From IMG/VR virus record IMGVR_UViG_3300020411_002586, positions 1 through 28,430 of that record: a DNA stretch of 28,430 nucleotides, one strand, 5' to 3'. Source of the DNA: a virus. Both the position numbers and the translations under genes were made by a program. Below, piece after piece: positions 12,055 to 28,430 of the stretch (its first letter is position 1; every line of letters begins with the position of its first letter). The notes beneath the pieces were generated by a model. That model had not been told where the DNA came from and ran no database searches. It saw only the letters and a list, made by a program, of their open reading frames with translations.

Positions 12055-12909
12055 ATGGTGCTTGAATATCCAAACATTGTGGTTGGCTCTAGTTTAGATG
12101 CTGTAATGTTCGCATACATCAACAACTATCCGTTATTTTTTGAGTCAGGAAAGAGACCCTTCAGGTTTGACTATCTGCAGCCTGATATGCAATTAGATTT
12201 TTTAAAACTGGCCCGGGCCGGCCCAAAAAGTTTAACGACACTTGACGGACAAAAGCTGGTTGGCATATCCCACGAACTTCTTTGGGAAAGATTACTGTTC
12301 ATTATGTCAATTGTTGGAAATGTGCCATTGTCTGATATGTGTAAATCAATTAGATATGACGCGTCAAAAATTACCTGCTTTAACGAATATTCAAAAATAG
12401 CAGAAGTTGCGTATAAAAAAATGTACAATTTTAAACAAGACGATAAAAAAAGCACTTTTTTGTGCCGCGATTGGATAGCATTTAATAGTGGCGGCAAGCA
12501 TGAGATAGACTTAATCGAGACAACTGACCAGTTTGTAAACCAAATCTGGTTTTATCCTTCTGATAGGATTTGTGGTAAAACCAAAGTTAAAGATGCCTGC
12601 GCTATTTCATTTATTGATAAAGAACACGTTAACGATTTTGAATTTAGTCAAACTATGGCCAGATTTAAGATTGTAAAAGATATGAAAGATAGAGGCATGA
12701 AGGGGTTGTTAAGTAGTTACGGACCCAATGGCAAGCCGAAACACTACGATTTTAAAACCTCTATTATCTCTCGCTCAATAGAACATCACGGACCTATTGT
12801 GTGCTTTGATGAGCACGACATACCTGTGAGTGTTCCAGATTTCGACAAGATGCTTAATCAACTGAACAAAAGTTCCATGAAGTATTGGAAAATATTGAGG
12901 CACCTATGA
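12055..12909 (+). CDS. Conserved phage protein of unknown function, predicted leaderless
   Basis: 284 residues, not assigned to a characterised family. The N-terminus YPNIVVGSSLDAVMFAYINN has the beta strand, small-residue turn and helix of a dinucleotide-binding fold, but the glycine motif (VGSSLDA) is not canonical. The rest mixes aromatic-rich strands (DQFVNQIWFYPSDR) and a conserved-looking FKTSIISRSIEHHGP segment. No Shine-Dalgarno sequence precedes the ATG, and a perfect promoter ends 6 bases upstream, so a leaderless message is predicted. The next internal Met (about residue 18) would remove the conserved-looking first strand. Its end overlaps the following gene by 4 bases (ATGA), which suggests a two-component function. 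Confidence 0.75.
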   Translation: MVLEYPNIVVGSSLDAVMFAYINNYPLFFESGKRPFRFDYLQPDMQLDFLKLARAGPKSLTTLDGQKLVGISHELLWERLLFIMSIVGNVPLSDMCKSIRYDASKITCFNEYSKIAEVAYKKMYNFKQDDKKSTFLCRDWIAFNSGGKHEIDLIETTDQFVNQIWFYPSDRICGKTKVKDACAISFIDKEHVNDFEFSQTMARFKIVKDMKDRGMKGLLSSYGPNGKPKHYDFKTSIISRSIEHHGPIVCFDEHDIPVSVPDFDKMLNQLNKSSMKYWKILRHL

Positions 12910-13799
12910 GCCAACACATGCACCTTGCCGGAATAATACCGATTGCTAATTTTAATGATACATTCGATATGCCTTATCCATGGTTTATGTTACCTGTTGA
13001 TAATGGTTTTTCTATGATACAGAAATCAGTTTTTGAATGCGCTATAGCTGGCTGTCAGACAATATGGATTGTTGCCAATGACGATATTGCTCCAATCATC
13101 AAGCACCACATTGGCGAATGGGTGTATGATCCTGTTTATTACTATCGCAAAGAAAAGTTTTACAAAGATAAAAGAAAAGAGATACCAATATATTATGTCC
13201 CTGTTCATCCCAAGGACCGCGACCGCCGTGACTCGTATGGCTGGTCCGCTTTGTACGGTATGCACTCGGCGTGGTATGTTTCACAGCGATTATCTAAATG
13301 GATTACGCCTGAAAAATACTATGTATCTTTTCCACACGCAGCATTCAATATCTACACACTGAGGGAACACCGGCCAATGATTAACCATCACAGTAATAAT
13401 TTCTTTCTGACCAGCGGCGGAAGTACGATTAAAAATAATGAGTACTTGTCGTTCACCATGTTTGGTGAAGATTTTAAGAACTGTCGTCGACATGTTAATT
13501 CTGAGACAACTAAAACATTTTACAATACTGAAGTTGGCGAAAAATATCCCTCAAAAAAATTGCCAATTAATGAAAGGTGGTCCGCAAGAAGTTTTGATAT
13601 AGAAACTGTCTTTTCGCAGGTTGACGAAACTAATTCATATAGGCATGATCTTGAGTGGTTCCATTCGCTGGAAAATTGGGACAACTACCGCAATTTTATG
13701 TCTAGTGAAAACTTTATACAAAAGCCTTCAGATTCCTTGACAAAGGCTCACAAACATAATATAATATGTAATGAAGAGGGGTACATCAATGAACAATAA
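12906..13799 (+). CDS. Nucleotidyltransferase-like conserved phage protein
   Basis: 297 residues from ATG 12906, chosen over an upstream ATG (12885) because it forms the ATGA overlap and has a GAGG site 6 bases upstream. The opening LAGIIPIANFND, then MPYPWFMLPVDN and CAIAGCQTIWIVANDD, resembles the GT-A/NTP-transferase pattern (hydrophobic strand, start-codon-like PV residues, helix, then IVxND). It continues with IPIYYVPVHPKDRDRRDS and KYYVSFPHAAF. The glycine-rich GxGxR nucleotide loop of sugar-nucleotidyltransferases is missing, so activity is uncertain. It is coupled to the preceding unknown gene, and its 3' end carries the dnaE promoter and overlaps dnaE by 11 bases. DNA or surface glycan modification is one possible role (inference). 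Confidence 0.6.
   Translation: MSQHMHLAGIIPIANFNDTFDMPYPWFMLPVDNGFSMIQKSVFECAIAGCQTIWIVANDDIAPIIKHHIGEWVYDPVYYYRKEKFYKDKRKEIPIYYVPVHPKDRDRRDSYGWSALYGMHSAWYVSQRLSKWITPEKYYVSFPHAAFNIYTLREHRPMINHHSNNFFLTSGGSTIKNNEYLSFTMFGEDFKNCRRHVNSETTKTFYNTEVGEKYPSKKLPINERWSARSFDIETVFSQVDETNSYRHDLEWFHSLENWDNYRNFMSSENFIQKPSDSLTKAHKHNIICNEEGYINEQ
13737..13765 (+). promoter_or_regulatory. Perfect consensus promoter for dnaE
   Basis: TTGACA (13737-13742), 17 bases, TATAAT (13760-13765), inside the 3' end of the preceding gene. Transcription would start near 13772, excluding the ATG at 13771 and supporting translation from ATG 13789 with a 17-base leader holding AGAGGGG. Confidence 0.85.
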
Positions 13800-18254: not shown

Positions 18255-18441
18255 ACTAACTAAGAAAAACATGCAACTATGGACGCCGGGCGAAGTAGCT
18301 CGTTTTTACAGCTGCTCTGTGGGCACTGTTGCGCAATGGCGCAAGGAAGGCAAGATCCCGTGCATTCTGCTGACCACGGGAGATTTTCGTTATGAGATTG
18401 AAGCAGTCCGCGATGCAATGGAGGTAGGCCGCAATGAATAA
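18247..18441 (+). CDS. MerR/excisionase-type helix-turn-helix protein
   Basis: 64 residues from ATG 18247. An upstream in-frame start at 18205 is rejected because it lies inside the previous gene, while 18247 has GAGGG 7 bases before it. The core LWTPGEVARFYSCSVGTVAQWRKEG followed by a small wing ending in ILLTTGDFRYEIEAV matches the winged helix-turn-helix of the MerR/Xis (HTH_17) superfamily. Such short proteins bind DNA as regulators or recombination directionality factors. No integrase is nearby and the phage appears lytic, so a transcriptional regulator is more likely. It overlaps both neighbours. Confidence 0.65.
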   Translation: MNKLTKKNMQLWTPGEVARFYSCSVGTVAQWRKEGKIPCILLTTGDFRYEIEAVRDAMEVGRNE

Positions 18442-18907
18442 AGCTACTCAGCAGTTAATGTTTAGCTCTAAAACTGATGAGTGGGCTACACCGCAAGAGT
18501 TTTTTGATAAACTTAACTGGCGCTTTGGACCTTTTGACTTGGACCCTTGCGCCAACCCACACAATACTAAGTGTGCTAATTTTTTTACTGAAGCCGAAGA
18601 TGGGCTTAGTAAAAACTGGGAAGGCTTCACTACATTTGTCAATCCTCCTTATGGGCGCGGAATCGATAAGTGGATTAAGAAAGCCTTTGATGAATCCCGC
18701 AAGGAACAAACCCGTGTGGTGATGTTAATACCAGCTAGAACTGATACAAAATATTGGCATCAATATGTAATGCGTGCAGATGAGGTGTATTTTTTGAAAG
18801 GACGTTTAAAGTTTGGAGATTGCGATAATTCAGCACCATTTCCGTCAGCGGTTGTTGTCTTTGATGGCACGAATCAAAGACAAATATTTGGAGCGATGAA
18901 CAGATGA
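18434..18907 (+). CDS. Phage DNA N6-adenine methyltransferase (pfam05869 type)
   Basis: 157 residues, the size of the short phage Dam family (DNA N-6-adenine-methyltransferase, PF05869). Key segments: TDEWATPQEFFDKLN near the start, FDLDPCANPHN (34-44, AdoMet-pocket region), the catalytic NPPYGRGIDKWI (70-81), then MLIPARTDTKYWHQY and GRLKFG. The motif order and short length differ from the D12 enzyme at 2689, so the phage carries two unrelated adenine methyltransferases. It overlaps the HTH gene by 8 bases and the next gene by 4 (ATGA). Confidence 0.88.
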   Translation: MNKATQQLMFSSKTDEWATPQEFFDKLNWRFGPFDLDPCANPHNTKCANFFTEAEDGLSKNWEGFTTFVNPPYGRGIDKWIKKAFDESRKEQTRVVMLIPARTDTKYWHQYVMRADEVYFLKGRLKFGDCDNSAPFPSAVVVFDGTNQRQIFGAMNR

Positions 18908-21497: not shown

Positions 21498-21546
21498 AAT
21501 TATTTACTATTTAAGTTTGAGTTTATTTTTTTAAGGAGATTTCACA

Positions 21547-23364: not shown

Positions 23365-23374
23365 GGTTTTGAAC

Positions 23375-25087
23375 GTGGACATTAAACAAATACTAAAAGA
23401 AGAATACTCCAAAAAGGATGGACTCAAGCAGGCCATGAACTTAATGGAGATGATTGAAGAAGTTATATCTGTTGTTTCGCTGCTTAGCGAGGAAGAGGTG
23501 CCAAATGTGGTGCCCAAAGATGACACAGAAGCAATCGAAATGATTTTGAAGATGATCCCAAACATCGAGGTGTCTGAGATCGGCTGGTCTGATGTACGCA
23601 CACCAGAAGCAGGTCAAGAGATTAAAGGTCCACAACGTAAACTATTAGAAGATTATCTGAGCAACATCGCTGGTGATGACTTTAAGGCTCGAATTGAGAA
23701 TGTTTCAAGATTCTACGATGATGGTACAGGCATCGTGCAAGAGCGCGCTGGTGGTGATCGCACACAACGCATCGTACAGGCTATATCATACCTTGTGTTT
23801 TATAAAACATTAACAAAAGTCATAACAAACTTTAACGCATCCTCCGCTGGCTTTAGCTTTGAATCATTTTTGGCAGCACTTGTTAATGGTTACCAGATTC
23901 CTGCCAATACAGGCACAATTGCAGACTATATTGACCGTGCAAGCGGTGAGCAGATTCCTGTCAGTCTGAAGTTGTACAAAGAAGGTAACCTTGAGGTTGG
24001 TGGTAGCTATACCGATTTGGTTAATGATCTTACCATGACCGGAGAGCAAACAAAAAACTGGGCATCATCTTTTCCAAACGCAATGAGATATGTTGTATGC
24101 ACAAAGCAGCTAACAGGCGATGACCTTGAACAAGAAGGTCAAATAAAATTCTACCAGTTTGATTTTACTCTCGATAATGTTGTGGACATACTTGCTAACT
24201 CAAAAGACTCGTCAAAGAAATGCATCATGATACCTCGTAGGGTGATGAACGCACTAAAAGGTGGTCAATTGTCTAACGTCGATCTTGATCTGCCCGACGC
24301 CGGCACGCTCCCATCCCCTCAAGAATTAGAAAAAGTATTCATTGATGCACTCCGAAAGATTATTGAAGATAACGGAATTCCAATTGATGAGGCAGGCTTT
24401 AAGGACTTAACTGACAAGCTGGATTGGTCTGAAAATGATGATCTGTTTCAGCCGGCCGACGCAAAACGTTTTGGCGGTGTTGAACAAGGAGTTGTCCGCG
24501 GTATTTCTGCGACAAATCCAAATGCTCGCAAAGAAATAGTAAACGCCATGTTCCCACAAATGCCATGGAGAGGCGGACGTCAAGCACTCATCACAGCTAT
24601 TGGTGCAGCCAACAAGGTTGTCACAGATCAGCACACGGCGTCTAAGAAAGCTGATGAAAGAAATCGAGAGATCGTTCGTATGGTTCAGGCAGACGAATTT
24701 CTTAGTCCTGAAGAATCCATGAGAGAATATGGAATGCTTAAGAGCGCAGACCGTAAGAAGATTGCACTCAAGAATTCATGGGGCTACCTTACTACAGGTC
24801 ACTTCTCGATGAACCAAACCCAAGCAACTAACACAGGTGCTCCCACAAATACAATTGAGATTGGTGTCATTAGAGTTGGTCGTGCTGAAGTTGCAAATGT
24901 TGTCAATAGTATTAGAGATATTCTTAATGAAGAAGTAACTGAGATTTTTAAGTCGTTAAAGATTCTTTCCGATAGCCTTAATTCATTCTTTGCAGGTGGT
25001 CTGCAAGATGACTCGCTCGCTGGGCAGTCAATCTCTAATGCAAACAATATTAGTTCTAAAGAAATTTTGCAAACAAAGGACAAATAG
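23375..25087 (+). CDS. Large conserved phage protein with possible PD-(D/E)XK-like core
   Basis: 570 residues from GTG 23375, chosen because GAGG at 23363-23366 is 8 bases away; a TTG 6 bases earlier is too close. The N-terminus DIKQILKEEYSKK is a helix seen in other marine-phage proteins. Residues 160-200 read FSFESFLAALVNG, then GTIADYID and VSLKLYKE: E163, D184 and K199 are spaced like the E, D and (x)xK residues of PD-(D/E)XK nucleases. The middle contains a second predicted beta region, and residues 410-490 have a charged helix and a TGHFSMNQTQATNTG segment. No family recognised; structural or nuclease roles are both possible. Promoter and groEL follow. Confidence 0.6.
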   Translation: MDIKQILKEEYSKKDGLKQAMNLMEMIEEVISVVSLLSEEEVPNVVPKDDTEAIEMILKMIPNIEVSEIGWSDVRTPEAGQEIKGPQRKLLEDYLSNIAGDDFKARIENVSRFYDDGTGIVQERAGGDRTQRIVQAISYLVFYKTLTKVITNFNASSAGFSFESFLAALVNGYQIPANTGTIADYIDRASGEQIPVSLKLYKEGNLEVGGSYTDLVNDLTMTGEQTKNWASSFPNAMRYVVCTKQLTGDDLEQEGQIKFYQFDFTLDNVVDILANSKDSSKKCIMIPRRVMNALKGGQLSNVDLDLPDAGTLPSPQELEKVFIDALRKIIEDNGIPIDEAGFKDLTDKLDWSENDDLFQPADAKRFGGVEQGVVRGISATNPNARKEIVNAMFPQMPWRGGRQALITAIGAANKVVTDQHTASKKADERNREIVRMVQADEFLSPEESMREYGMLKSADRKKIALKNSWGYLTTGHFSMNQTQATNTGAPTNTIEIGVIRVGRAEVANVVNSIRDILNEEVTEIFKSLKILSDSLNSFFAGGLQDDSLAGQSISNANNISSKEILQTKDK

Positions 25088-25090
25088 AGC

Positions 25091-25119
25091 TTGACATTAT
25101 GCCATAATGTGACTATAAT
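25091..25119 (+). promoter_or_regulatory. groEL promoter with palindromic spacer
   Basis: TTGACA (25091-25096), 17 bases, TATAAT (25114-25119), all positions perfect. The spacer holds the perfect odd palindrome CATTATG-C-CATAATG (25095-25109), which begins within the -35 hexamer and looks like a repressor site. The groEL ATG at 25141 leaves a leader of about 15 bases. Confidence 0.85.
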
Positions 25120-25140: not shown

Positions 25141-26724
25141 ATGAGTCGAGAATACGACGACAATCAAACACTACAACAAAAGATTATGACGGGCGCTAAC
25201 AAGTTGGCTGACAATGTTGCGTCCACGCTTGGACCCCGAGGCAGAAACGTATTACTACAAGAGAAAGGCAAGCCGCCGTTTATCACCAAAGATGGTGTGA
25301 CTGTGGCTGCTTTTGTTTCATGCGAAGATCCTTTTGAAAATGCAGCCGCACAAATTATTAAGCAAGCAGCAGTTGAAACAAACAACAATGCCGGCGACGG
25401 CACCACTACTGCTACTGTTTTAGCCAGAGCTATACTTCGTGAGTCACAAAAGTATGTTGTATCTGGTGTGTCACCAATTGAATTAAAGAGAGGTATAGAT
25501 GCTAGTATTAAGCAAGTATGTGATCACCTTGACAATATGTCGCGTCCGATCACTAGTGCAGAGGATATCGCTCACGTCGCTACGATTTCTGCCAATAACG
25601 ATTCAAACATCGGAAATCTTATCACTATGGCTATTGATCGAGTCGGAGAGGATGGCTCTGTAACCATCGAGGAATCTCGTTCTGTTGAGACTGCTATTGA
25701 TGTAACCGAAGGGTTTAGATTTAATGCAGGCTATTGTGCCACTGCATTCATCACAGATGAGCGCCGCGCAGTCATGGCATACGAAGAGCCCTTATTCTTG
25801 GTGACAGATCACAAGATCTCACAGGTAGAACCAATCTTACCAATATTAGAAATGGTTGCCAGAGAGGGACGTCCGCTAGTGATCGTCGCGGAAGATATCG
25901 AAGGTCAAGCATTGGCGGCTATGATTATGAACGCCGTGCGAGGCACTTTAAAAATTGCAGCTATCAAAGCGCCGTTGTATGGCGAAGAGCGACGTAATTT
26001 GCTTGATGATTTGGCTTTGTCTGTAGGTGCTGAGTTTATTAAAAGAGAAGATGGCTTGAAATTGGCCGAGGTAAAATTGTCAGATTTAGGTACAGCTAGG
26101 GCTATCGAAAGCACTAAAAATGCCACAACAATCATTGGTGGTAAATGTGATTTCAAATTGATTGACGGACGTATCGAATCATTGAAGAATCAAATTAAAG
26201 ACACTGCTTCGCTGCCTGAGTGTGAAGTCTTACAAAGTAGAGTTGTTAGGCTGTCATCTGGTGTTGCAATCATCTCTGTCGGAGGCACTACTGAAGTCGA
26301 AATGATTGAAAGAAAACATCGTATTGAAGATGCCCTTGAAGCTGTGCGTTCAGCGCAAGATGATGGTATCATAGGCGGCGGCGGTACTGCACTGTTGCGA
26401 GCGTCCGAAGGTATTGAAATTGAAGCCACTCACAGCGATCAGTTGCATGGTGCTACTGTTGTTAGGGAAGCATGCAAAGAACCCTTCAGACAAATGGCCC
26501 TCAACGCTGGTGAATCGCCCGACATATTGATAAATCTTGTCAGCGAGTCCGATGCTGATACAGGTTGGGATTTTCGCAATAATAAGTTGACAAATATGTA
26601 TGAAGGTGGTATAATTGATCCAGTGAAGGTTACCAAAACTGCACTACAAAATGCAGCAAGTTGTGCTAGCACACTTATCACAACTAATTTTGGAATTATT
26701 CAAACGGAGCTTGACAATGTTTAA
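25141..26724 (+). CDS. groL: GroEL-type chaperonin (Cpn60)
   Basis: 527 residues against about 548 in E. coli. Chaperonins form double rings that fold substrate proteins inside an ATP-driven chamber. The equatorial ATP site is intact: TLGPRGRNVLL (29-39), ITKDGVTVA (48-56), GDGTTTATVLA with D86, and the D398-equivalent at residue 397 in RIEDALEAVR, followed by GGGGTALL. The apical domain is present but diverged (ATAFITDERR, RPLVIVAEDIEGQALAAMI). The flexible GGM repeat tail is missing: it ends IIQTELDNV. A phage copy would fold capsid or other phage proteins, probably with the GroES-like protein encoded at 10828. It has a perfect palindrome-bearing promoter of its own. Confidence 0.95.
   Translation: MSREYDDNQTLQQKIMTGANKLADNVASTLGPRGRNVLLQEKGKPPFITKDGVTVAAFVSCEDPFENAAAQIIKQAAVETNNNAGDGTTTATVLARAILRESQKYVVSGVSPIELKRGIDASIKQVCDHLDNMSRPITSAEDIAHVATISANNDSNIGNLITMAIDRVGEDGSVTIEESRSVETAIDVTEGFRFNAGYCATAFITDERRAVMAYEEPLFLVTDHKISQVEPILPILEMVAREGRPLVIVAEDIEGQALAAMIMNAVRGTLKIAAIKAPLYGEERRNLLDDLALSVGAEFIKREDGLKLAEVKLSDLGTARAIESTKNATTIIGGKCDFKLIDGRIESLKNQIKDTASLPECEVLQSRVVRLSSGVAIISVGGTTEVEMIERKHRIEDALEAVRSAQDDGIIGGGGTALLRASEGIEIEATHSDQLHGATVVREACKEPFRQMALNAGESPDILINLVSESDADTGWDFRNNKLTNMYEGGIIDPVKVTKTALQNAASCASTLITTNFGIIQTELDNV
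26587..26615 (+). promoter_or_regulatory. Perfect consensus promoter inside groEL
   Basis: TTGACA (26587-26592), exactly 17 bases, TATAAT (26610-26615). It lies about 100 bases before the start at 26717 and could drive the final gene group separately from groEL. The bases also encode KLTNMYEGGIID, a conserved groEL region, so chance cannot be excluded. Confidence 0.5.
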
Positions 26725-26941
26725 AGGTCAGTTATGTTACATACCACAAGATGTTTATTTAGTCCAAGAAAACAATCGAAAATATCACAAGACCGATAAA
26801 CCAATCAATGCTGTGGTTGTCGAATACAACAATTGGGACAAGTGGTGTAAAATATTATATAAGAATGAAATTTGGGATGTTAGATTAAATAACACATACC
26901 CATTGGAGGAAAATGTTAGTAAGATTAACGGAAGTGTGTAA
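26717..26941 (+). CDS. Small conserved phage protein, SH3-like by pattern
   Basis: 74 residues from ATG 26717 in the GroEL stop region. An earlier in-frame ATG (26651) lies within groEL and lacks a site, whereas CGGAG (26705-26709) precedes 26717. The short strands FKGQLCYIPQDVYLVQE, AVVVEYNNWDKW and ILYKNEIWDVRLNNTYPL, with conserved-looking aromatics, are compatible with a small SH3-like barrel. Function unknown. It overlaps groEL by 8 bases and the next gene by 29. Confidence 0.6.
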   Translation: MFKGQLCYIPQDVYLVQENNRKYHKTDKPINAVVVEYNNWDKWCKILYKNEIWDVRLNNTYPLEENVSKINGSV

Positions 26942-27203
26942 CACAGGGGCGGTTACAAATAATGCACAATATTCTTTGCGGGAAGTTTATATTAACCCCG
27001 AACATGTGGTGATGGTGCGCGAAGAACAGCGCCTCAAGCAAATAAACGAACAAAGTACAATAGTTGACGGACTCGATTCGTCACATAGATTTTCAAAACT
27101 GGTTATTGATAAGGGCAATACTGGAACAGAAATAGTTGTAGTGGGAGCACCTGATGCTATCGAGACAATTTTAAAGAAACAAAAACAAGTATTAAAAGGA
27201 TAA
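26913..27203 (+). CDS. Small conserved phage protein
   Basis: 96 residues from ATG 26913, preceded by GGAGG. The pattern LVRLTEVC, then SLREVYINPEHVVMVREE, then a loop and TEIVVVGAPDAIETILKKQK resembles short beta-rich FlbD-like proteins found in bacteria and marine T4-type phages, where they are mostly uncharacterised. No catalytic residues seen. It overlaps its upstream neighbour and ends 2 bases before the next start. Confidence 0.6.
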   Translation: MLVRLTEVCNTGAVTNNAQYSLREVYINPEHVVMVREEQRLKQINEQSTIVDGLDSSHRFSKLVIDKGNTGTEIVVVGAPDAIETILKKQKQVLKG

Positions 27204-27205
27204 AC

Positions 27206-27598
27206 ATGGAAAATAATAGAATTACATTACAGTATTCAGTGGAAGAGAGTCAGCTGAAATTTGAGGTTCACAGGCTTGTAACTAATGCTTTGAATCGGCT
27301 AAATTCAATTAGTTGCGAAGAGCCACCGCCGGCCTCTGTCTTAAGCATGTCTACTGCTGATGAGATTGAATCATTGCGTACTGAATTGGCAAAGATCGAT
27401 ATTCTTTTCGGTGATGCTTCGGCAATTATTCAAAACTATATTGATTACAAGCACCGCCGGCGCATGTCAGATGCCACAACACCTGATATTCCAACTAATG
27501 GGGCTATTCCCAATTTAGATTCACTTAATTTGGATGCCCTAAACGAAAAAATACAAAACTTCAAGGATAATTTAAACTCACATGAGAACGCCGATTAA
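27206..27598 (+). CDS. Hypothetical helical protein
   Basis: 130 residues starting 3 bases after the previous stop, with AAAAGGA upstream. The N-terminus (ITLQYSVEESQLKFEVHRLV) is a strand then helix. A helix with SLRTELAKIDILFGDASAII follows, and the C-terminus is a Pro/Asn-rich linker and a final helix (LNEKIQNFKDNLNS). It overlaps the methyltransferase-like gene by 17 bases. No family assigned. The general look matches short structural or assembly proteins of marine myoviruses. Confidence 0.6.
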   Translation: MENNRITLQYSVEESQLKFEVHRLVTNALNRLNSISCEEPPPASVLSMSTADEIESLRTELAKIDILFGDASAIIQNYIDYKHRRRMSDATTPDIPTNGAIPNLDSLNLDALNEKIQNFKDNLNSHENAD

Positions 27599-28340
27599 AG
27601 ATTTAAGATTTAAATCAAAAGCACTGCCGGTTCTAATGTCTATAATCCCTCCAGAAAGTAAAGTTGAAACCTTTTTATTCTTTTCTGGTGATATAGAGGT
27701 TAATTTAGCAGAAGCTAACAGACATGTCACATCTCACACAACAGAGCTGCCTGTCTATGATTTTTGGTTAACTTTGATGGATGATGCTGATATGCTTGTT
27801 GAACATATAAAACATCTCCATCCAATCCCCAGTCAAGATGTGGCTAATGTTTTTCAAAAAACCTTAAATAAACAAAAGAATCCATATACGAGAGCAGCGC
27901 TATTTTTTTTGCTTAATAGATGTTCAGAATTGGGCACCATATCTTCTGGTGATTACGACGAAGCACGCTACAATCCATTAGCACTATCATACATTAAAAG
28001 ATTTAAACAACAAAACTTTGATATAACATGGGACAAAGAATTTATTGCCTCCTTGGAAAAAGAAATAGACGCCGATTTTATATTCATCCCAGCGGGCAAA
28101 TTTACCTATTCTTTTATGCAAGATGGACTGAACACAGGCGACGACACCACCAGATTTGATCATGATGAGTTATCCAGAACATTGAGCAACATTAGGGTAC
28201 CAACCTTGGTGTTATATTCGTACCATCCAGCGCTGCTAAACATTTATTCATTATTTAAGACTAAAATTTTGATTGATAAATACGGTAAGGTTACTGACGA
28301 TAAATCAGCCGCAAAGGAGATTTTAATTGCCAATTTTTGA
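27582..28340 (+). CDS. Degenerate D12 adenine-methyltransferase paralogue
   Basis: 252 residues that align from end to end by eye with the phage's own Dam (2689-3546). N-terminal MRTPIKDLRFKSKALPVLMS matches MKTPLRYPGGKSRAVETLMS, the middle LNRCSELGTISSG matches INRSSFSGATFSGG, YIKRFKQQNF matches YVRNFKVDNF, and the end EILIANF matches EIVITNLK. Yet every key motif is lost: the PGGK loop reads LRFK, motif I FLGGGSFE reads FLFFSGDIE (31-39), and the catalytic DPPY reads IPAG (169-172). A catalytically dead, neofunctionalised homologue is the simplest reading. Frame is intact, so it is not a decayed pseudogene. Confidence 0.7.
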   Translation: MRTPIKDLRFKSKALPVLMSIIPPESKVETFLFFSGDIEVNLAEANRHVTSHTTELPVYDFWLTLMDDADMLVEHIKHLHPIPSQDVANVFQKTLNKQKNPYTRAALFFLLNRCSELGTISSGDYDEARYNPLALSYIKRFKQQNFDITWDKEFIASLEKEIDADFIFIPAGKFTYSFMQDGLNTGDDTTRFDHDELSRTLSNIRVPTLVLYSYHPALLNIYSLFKTKILIDKYGKVTDDKSAAKEILIANF

Positions 28341-28430
28341 ATTAGGAAAAACTTTCGCGCTATTCGCTGTAGCACAAACATGCGTATGGTTTCAGTGTTA
28401 TTCGCATTATATTTGGTCATGGTGGGAAGG
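28327..28430 (+). CDS. N-terminal part of a membrane-associated protein
   Basis: Open from TTG 28327 to the right edge (34 codons). A strong AAAGGAG (28313-28319) 7 bases upstream supports the TTG start. The product MPIFELGKTFALFAVAQTCV continues with WFQ, His and several Trp residues, a hydrophobic and aromatic stretch suited to a membrane or membrane-interacting helix. It overlaps the end of the methyltransferase-like gene by 14 bases. Nothing more can be said without the rest. Confidence 0.6.
   Translation, partial: MPIFELGKTFALFAVAQTCVWFQCYSHYIWSWWE

Follow-up and report, generated by a model that had tools for sequence, protein, structure and literature searches.

A putatively non-catalytic Dam-fold protein encoded behind GroEL in uncultured marine T4-like phages

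Near the 3' end of the window, the 28,430-base stretch of virus DNA analysed here, lies a gene for a relative of the Dam methyltransferases without their catalytic motifs, and the question that this locus raises is what such a 'dead' protein does for a phage. The record also encodes gp32-like, UvsX and UvdE proteins, a DnaB-like helicase, a B12-dependent RNR, DnaE, IMPDH, ClpP and GroEL, and its large relatives encode the gp23 capsid protein; this combination assigns the virus to an uncultured marine T4-like group. Among annotated capsids, the nearest belong to Flavobacterium phage immuto, Microcystis phage Mel-JY01 and Rhodothermus phage RM378, and F4, a conserved neighbour of the dead gene, has zero matches among annotated phage records. 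Taken together, the comparisons below indicate that the dead protein, a core protein of this phage group, is ancient, has a D12 fold, is under selection and, as predicted from its motifs, is non-catalytic.

Fold and loss of the catalytic motifs

The reading frame is intact and specifies 252 residues. Against the 285-residue Dam encoded at the other end of the window, BLASTP gives 24% identity over residues 1–170 (E = 5e-12), and a profile of the dead family aligns with the active Dams end to end, over columns 1–253 (hhalign E = 8.1e-30, probability 99.8%). Further matches are to PHROG_56 (5e-8), to the PADLOC model MTase_II (2.6e-16, residues 11–252) and, by phmmer, to PDB entry 7m6b (7.4e-6); the Pfam D12 model (PF02086) gives no match at E ≤ 10. 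An AlphaFold model computed from 24 natural family members (pLDDT 88.8, pTM 0.86) finds D12 enzymes exclusively as its top solved matches, namely, 7m6b (Z 22.1), E. coli Dam (20.8), DpnM (19.1) and T4 Dam (17.5), with other folds of the same class at Z 11.4 and below. The model thus predicts a Dam/D12 fold with a helical recognition domain, and the near full-length homology to D12 Dam proposed in the initial annotation is borne out by both the family profile and the structural matches. The 'good ribosome sites' mentioned there are borne out in part: in the window, AAGGA lies ~14 nt upstream of the ATG, and several relatives have better-spaced AAGGA-type sites. Since this ATG lies within the 3' end of the gene before it, the two are likely to be translationally coupled.

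In the window protein, PGGK is replaced by LRFK (residues 8–11), motif I by FLFFSGDIE (31–39) and DPPY by IPAG (169–172), just as first described; additionally, the motif II aspartate (D54) has gone, its counterpart being T53. All 21 active Dams examined keep PGGK, the GGG/GGA loop of motif I, D54 and DPPY, whereas none of 24 aligned dead members retains PGGK, the D54 position holds Thr (21 members) or Ala (3), and the catalytic aspartate, D204, is replaced by F, I, V, L, M or C in every one; a DPPY-type motif ([DNS]PP[YFW]) occurs in 0 of 75 copies of the site. Phe148 of the active enzymes aligns with Tyr119 of E. coli Dam, the intercalating residue (PMC10073500), and is E, D, S, A or others in dead members. 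The protein has thus lost the residues with which D12 enzymes bind SAM, catalyse the reaction and flip the base. Other positions persist: Lys6 of the dead protein, which aligns with the E. coli Dam Lys9 that reads the first guanine (PMC10073500), is K or R in 66 of 69 copies, though the adjoining PGGK is gone; the structural residues F61, W62, N112, S115, G118, N145, H194 and Y212 are retained; and six residues on or close to the old motif positions (G36, E39, T53, G172, H194 and Y212) are conserved in 56–68 of 69 copies. A distant member, L080, which is the first branch among the dead copies, has PGDK, FLTGGSIE and CCPY, and is an apparent evolutionary intermediate with partly kept motifs.

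Distribution, ancestry and selection

Used as a single query against viral contigs, the window protein returned zero relatives, which were recovered only via alignments and neighbouring proteins. With an alignment as query, 30 loci came up in IMG/VR, plus one contig in an Opitutia bin, and a repeat viral scan with more sequences in the alignment brought up those loci again. So that the dead gene itself would not steer the search, F4 served as an independent marker of the locus, its alignment being drawn from loci with the dead gene; of 231 stretches that encode a relative, the best 80 were inspected. The dead protein directly follows F5 in 75 of them, and the remaining five end within 460 bases of F4; among these best 80 of 231 matches, it is hence present, at one fixed position, in 75 of the 75 loci with enough sequence. 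The search of related phages for the same motif losses, suggested at the outset, found losses common to the family.

The dead copies are monophyletic (support 100/99) and fall inside the phage-type D12 subclass, near the base of which they split from all active phage Dams. A bacterial enzyme (L174) adjoins the clade (91/85), long branches leaving its exact sister uncertain. As the active Dams are separate in the tree, the window's own Dam is a distant cousin and not the parent; given this deep split, and since an active D12 enzyme is optional in the group, the dead protein should no longer be called a paralogue of the phage's own Dam.

By the Nei–Gojobori method, dN/dS of the dead gene is 0.044–0.070 in six pairs (dS 0.76–2.4, near saturation in several), and 0.16 in one near-identical pair, compared with 0.075–0.15 for the active Dams and 0.019–0.042 for GroEL. 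This ratio of synonymous to nonsynonymous change (dN/dS ~0.05) upholds the view that the intact frame is under selection and, together with the absence of the catalytic Asp from all 24 members and of a DPPY-type motif from all 75 site copies, refutes a recent random loss. A decaying remnant without function would fit the missing catalytic motifs, and is refuted, with a probability close to nil, by the same dN/dS and by the presence of the gene in all 75 loci with room (best 80 of 231 F4 matches). Moreover, the helical domain is better conserved than the catalytic domain in 232 of 251 dead pairs versus 13 of 191 active pairs, and in 1627 of 2340 pairs of a larger dead set; in the dead copies, conservation has moved from the catalytic to the helical DNA-recognition domain. 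Predicted net charge (−5 for the window copy, −7 to +7 for full-length family members) does not separate dead from active copies, and GATC content gives no clear signal.

The GroEL operon and its surroundings

The order GroEL, F8, F4, F5, dead Dam, F7 is found in nearly all loci (window coordinates are given in Table 1). F7 starts with TTG, overlapping the stop codon of the dead gene, and is complete in L068, L077, L078 and others.

Table 1. Features of the window discussed in the text
Feature	Coordinates	Strand	Basis
Active D12 Dam, all motifs; accessory in the phage group	2689..3546	+	PF02086 2.1e-26, alignment
Second adenine methyltransferase, PF05869, intact (NPPY) and conserved alongside the dead protein	18434..18907	+	PF05869 4.1e-34
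ACTATTTA, candidate late-promoter element upstream of F9	21506..21513	+	Motif
F10, putative restriction-endonuclease-like protein in variable slot before GroEL	23369..25087	+	Conserved E..D..SLK, weak REase-fold matches
Sigma70-type promoter TTGACA-N17-TATAAT (12/12) upstream of GroEL; probable operon promoter	25091..25119	+	Motif only
Phage GroEL chaperonin, operon gene 1	25141..26724	+	PHROG_5725 5e-137, synteny
F8, small protein, start uncertain	26651..26941	+	Conserved position after GroEL
F4, conserved 96-aa protein, locus marker	26913..27203	+	Synteny, marker search
F5, 130-aa protein, 3' end overlaps dead-Dam start	27206..27598	+	Synteny
Putative catalytically dead D12/Dam-fold protein, 252 aa	27582..28340	+	Homology, motif table, AlphaFold model
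F7, small, apparently multi-spanning membrane protein, N-terminal part (gene cut by record end)	28327..28430	+	Sequence

A TTGACA-N16/17-TATAAT motif (11–12 of 12 positions) precedes GroEL in all checked loci without an active Dam directly in front, and is absent there from loci in which an active Dam directly precedes GroEL. The element ACTATTTA stands upstream of F6 in all loci checked and likewise upstream of F9, with one exception, a locus whose sequence is too short to show it either way; it also precedes several genes around gp23 in a 191-kb contig, and is absent from the GroEL-to-F7 stretch in the loci checked. The T4-type late promoter TATAAATA is not enriched. Judged by these motifs, the GroEL operon is likely to be an early-type unit, expressed early, between late-type units. 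The early-type promoter and the lack of the late-type motif inside the operon also make a structural role in the virion, one of three functions initially offered, less likely.

Several observations were made alongside. ACTATTTA resembles a late-promoter element of the phage group (in the 191-kb contig, G028, and at window position 21506), and a second sequence, GTTACATTA, is repeated at 43–55 kb in G028, downstream of TTGACA promoters and before mostly small genes. In the same contig (L144–L153), GGCC is extremely depleted (24 observed versus 506 expected), and among the 4-base palindromes of the window, too, it has the lowest score. Alternative putative PD-(D/E)xK nuclease-like proteins, in some cases accompanied by an active D12 Dam, occupy the slot that separates the ClpP-like gene from GroEL (window 23369–25087; L060:1124–2017 and L060:2056–2796; L062:2630–3508), which may be a swappable restriction-modification-like module; the fold matches of the window protein, F10, are weak (Hjc with Z 6.6, HincII, EcoRV, NhoI). 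Elsewhere in the window, a weakly ParB-like protein (1583–2689; phrog_930, 0.0045) directly precedes the active Dam, a small Thr/Glu-rich protein with an N-terminal hydrophobic stretch (940–1426) is followed by a pair of 39-nt direct repeats (at 1225 and 1388) that share 92% identity, and two adjoining proteins (12055–13799) have no Pfam or PHROG matches.

Possible functions and known systems

The strong conservation and the early-looking operon shared with a chaperonin argue that the dead protein does something other than methylate. Our preferred explanation, which we advance tentatively, is that it is a non-catalytic, DNA-binding pseudo-methyltransferase made early from a host-sigma70 promoter, and that it may deliver a partner instead. 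The helical recognition domain and the N-terminal basic residue whose counterpart contacts guanine in E. coli Dam would hold DNA, possibly at a Dam-type site, where the bound adenine would be neither flipped nor methylated; the bound protein could then mask sites from host enzymes, or mark and organize phage DNA during takeover. Alternatively, it could bring a partner to DNA, for example, the co-conserved small adenine methyltransferase PF05869. The full-length homology, the Dam fold, the complete loss of the motifs, the low dN/dS, the presence in all 75 loci with room (best 80 of 231 F4 matches), the retention of Lys6 as K or R, the shift in conservation, the early-type promoter and the lack of a late-type motif in the operon count in favour of this explanation; against it count a charge that is not uniformly positive and the loss of the base-flipping aromatic residue, often to an acidic one. 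The conserved helical segment could equally well bind protein. DNA recognition nevertheless seems the likeliest of the three functions suggested initially, and, in order of preference, we would place DNA binding before partnership with a methyltransferase, a repurposed pocket and a scaffold with the neighbouring proteins.

Appreciably less probable than DNA binding is that the dead protein acts like METTL14, as a companion that is itself non-catalytic and assists or regulates an active methyltransferase, be it the phage D12 Dam, the co-conserved PF05869 enzyme or one of the host. A D12 Dam lies inside the same gene cluster in one clade, and 10 of the large contigs in a first set of 11 have one, several of these having been found via the window's own Dam. 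However, of 21 other large contigs that encode the dead protein, 19 have no D12, among them two gp23-positive contigs of 194 and 155 kb, although contigs may be incomplete, and L062 and L063 keep the dead gene with no Dam in the slot where close relatives have one. The D12 Dam is therefore not an obligate partner, and regulation of the active enzyme, the third function initially suggested, is not a general one. The PF05869 enzyme is intact and present in 17 of 19 large contigs, the other two beginning so close to GroEL that its usual region is cut off, and NPPY is kept in all phage copies spanning the motif; yet this co-occurrence is non-specific, as other core genes co-occur as well. A mirror-tree comparison (raw distance-matrix correlations, PF05869 being outside the set) showed the dead protein to correlate weakly with every neighbour, none of which stood out as a partner. 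A special case, a split adenine methyltransferase in which the dead D12 protein would be the DNA-recognition platform and PF05869 the catalytic subunit, two separate families, is improbable.

Rather unlikely, and slightly behind the partner role, is a repurposed active site, in which the former SAM pocket would bind another ligand or catalyse another reaction: the six well-conserved residues at or near former motif positions, several with changed chemistry, would suit it, but no known catalytic signature is present, and average conservation is lower in the catalytic domain than in the helical one. Somewhat more doubtful still is a protein scaffold acting with the coupled neighbours F5 and F7 rather than on DNA. 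Reading frames overlap in most loci, and F7 is matched in nearly all loci that reach far enough; against this, one overlap is missing in L052, L055 and L064, and neither F5 nor F7 stands out in the distance-matrix comparison.

Among known proteins, the closest annotated-phage match is a D12 Dam of similar size encoded between the cyanophage clamp-loader genes gp44 and gp62; in contrast to the dead protein, it keeps PGGK and DPPY and occupies another locus, and the retained DPPY ruled out the cyanophage hits as members of the same dead family. We found no described dead D12 family in the open-access literature. METTL14 belongs to a methyltransferase family different from D12. In the METTL3–METTL14 complex, its methyltransferase fold is inactive and has been retained for a task other than catalysis, for example, substrate binding (PMC6112310). 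The dead protein, with a methyltransferase fold and, as predicted, no activity, is alike in this, and differs from such an obligate pseudo-subunit in that most of the large contigs in the second set (19 of 21) have no homologous D12 partner. With the D12 N6-adenine DNA methyltransferases (PF02086; E. coli Dam, T4 Dam, 7m6b), it shares whole-length homology and fold, but it lacks any catalytic or SAM-binding motif and escapes the Pfam D12 model. A pseudo-enzyme family missed by that model is here identified as a core, probably early, gene of a widespread group of uncultured marine T4-like phages, and the dead Dam, F5, F7 and PF05869 form a concrete set of proteins for testing. If DNA binding proves true, these phages have turned a modification enzyme of the D12 type into a non-catalytic DNA-binding tool.
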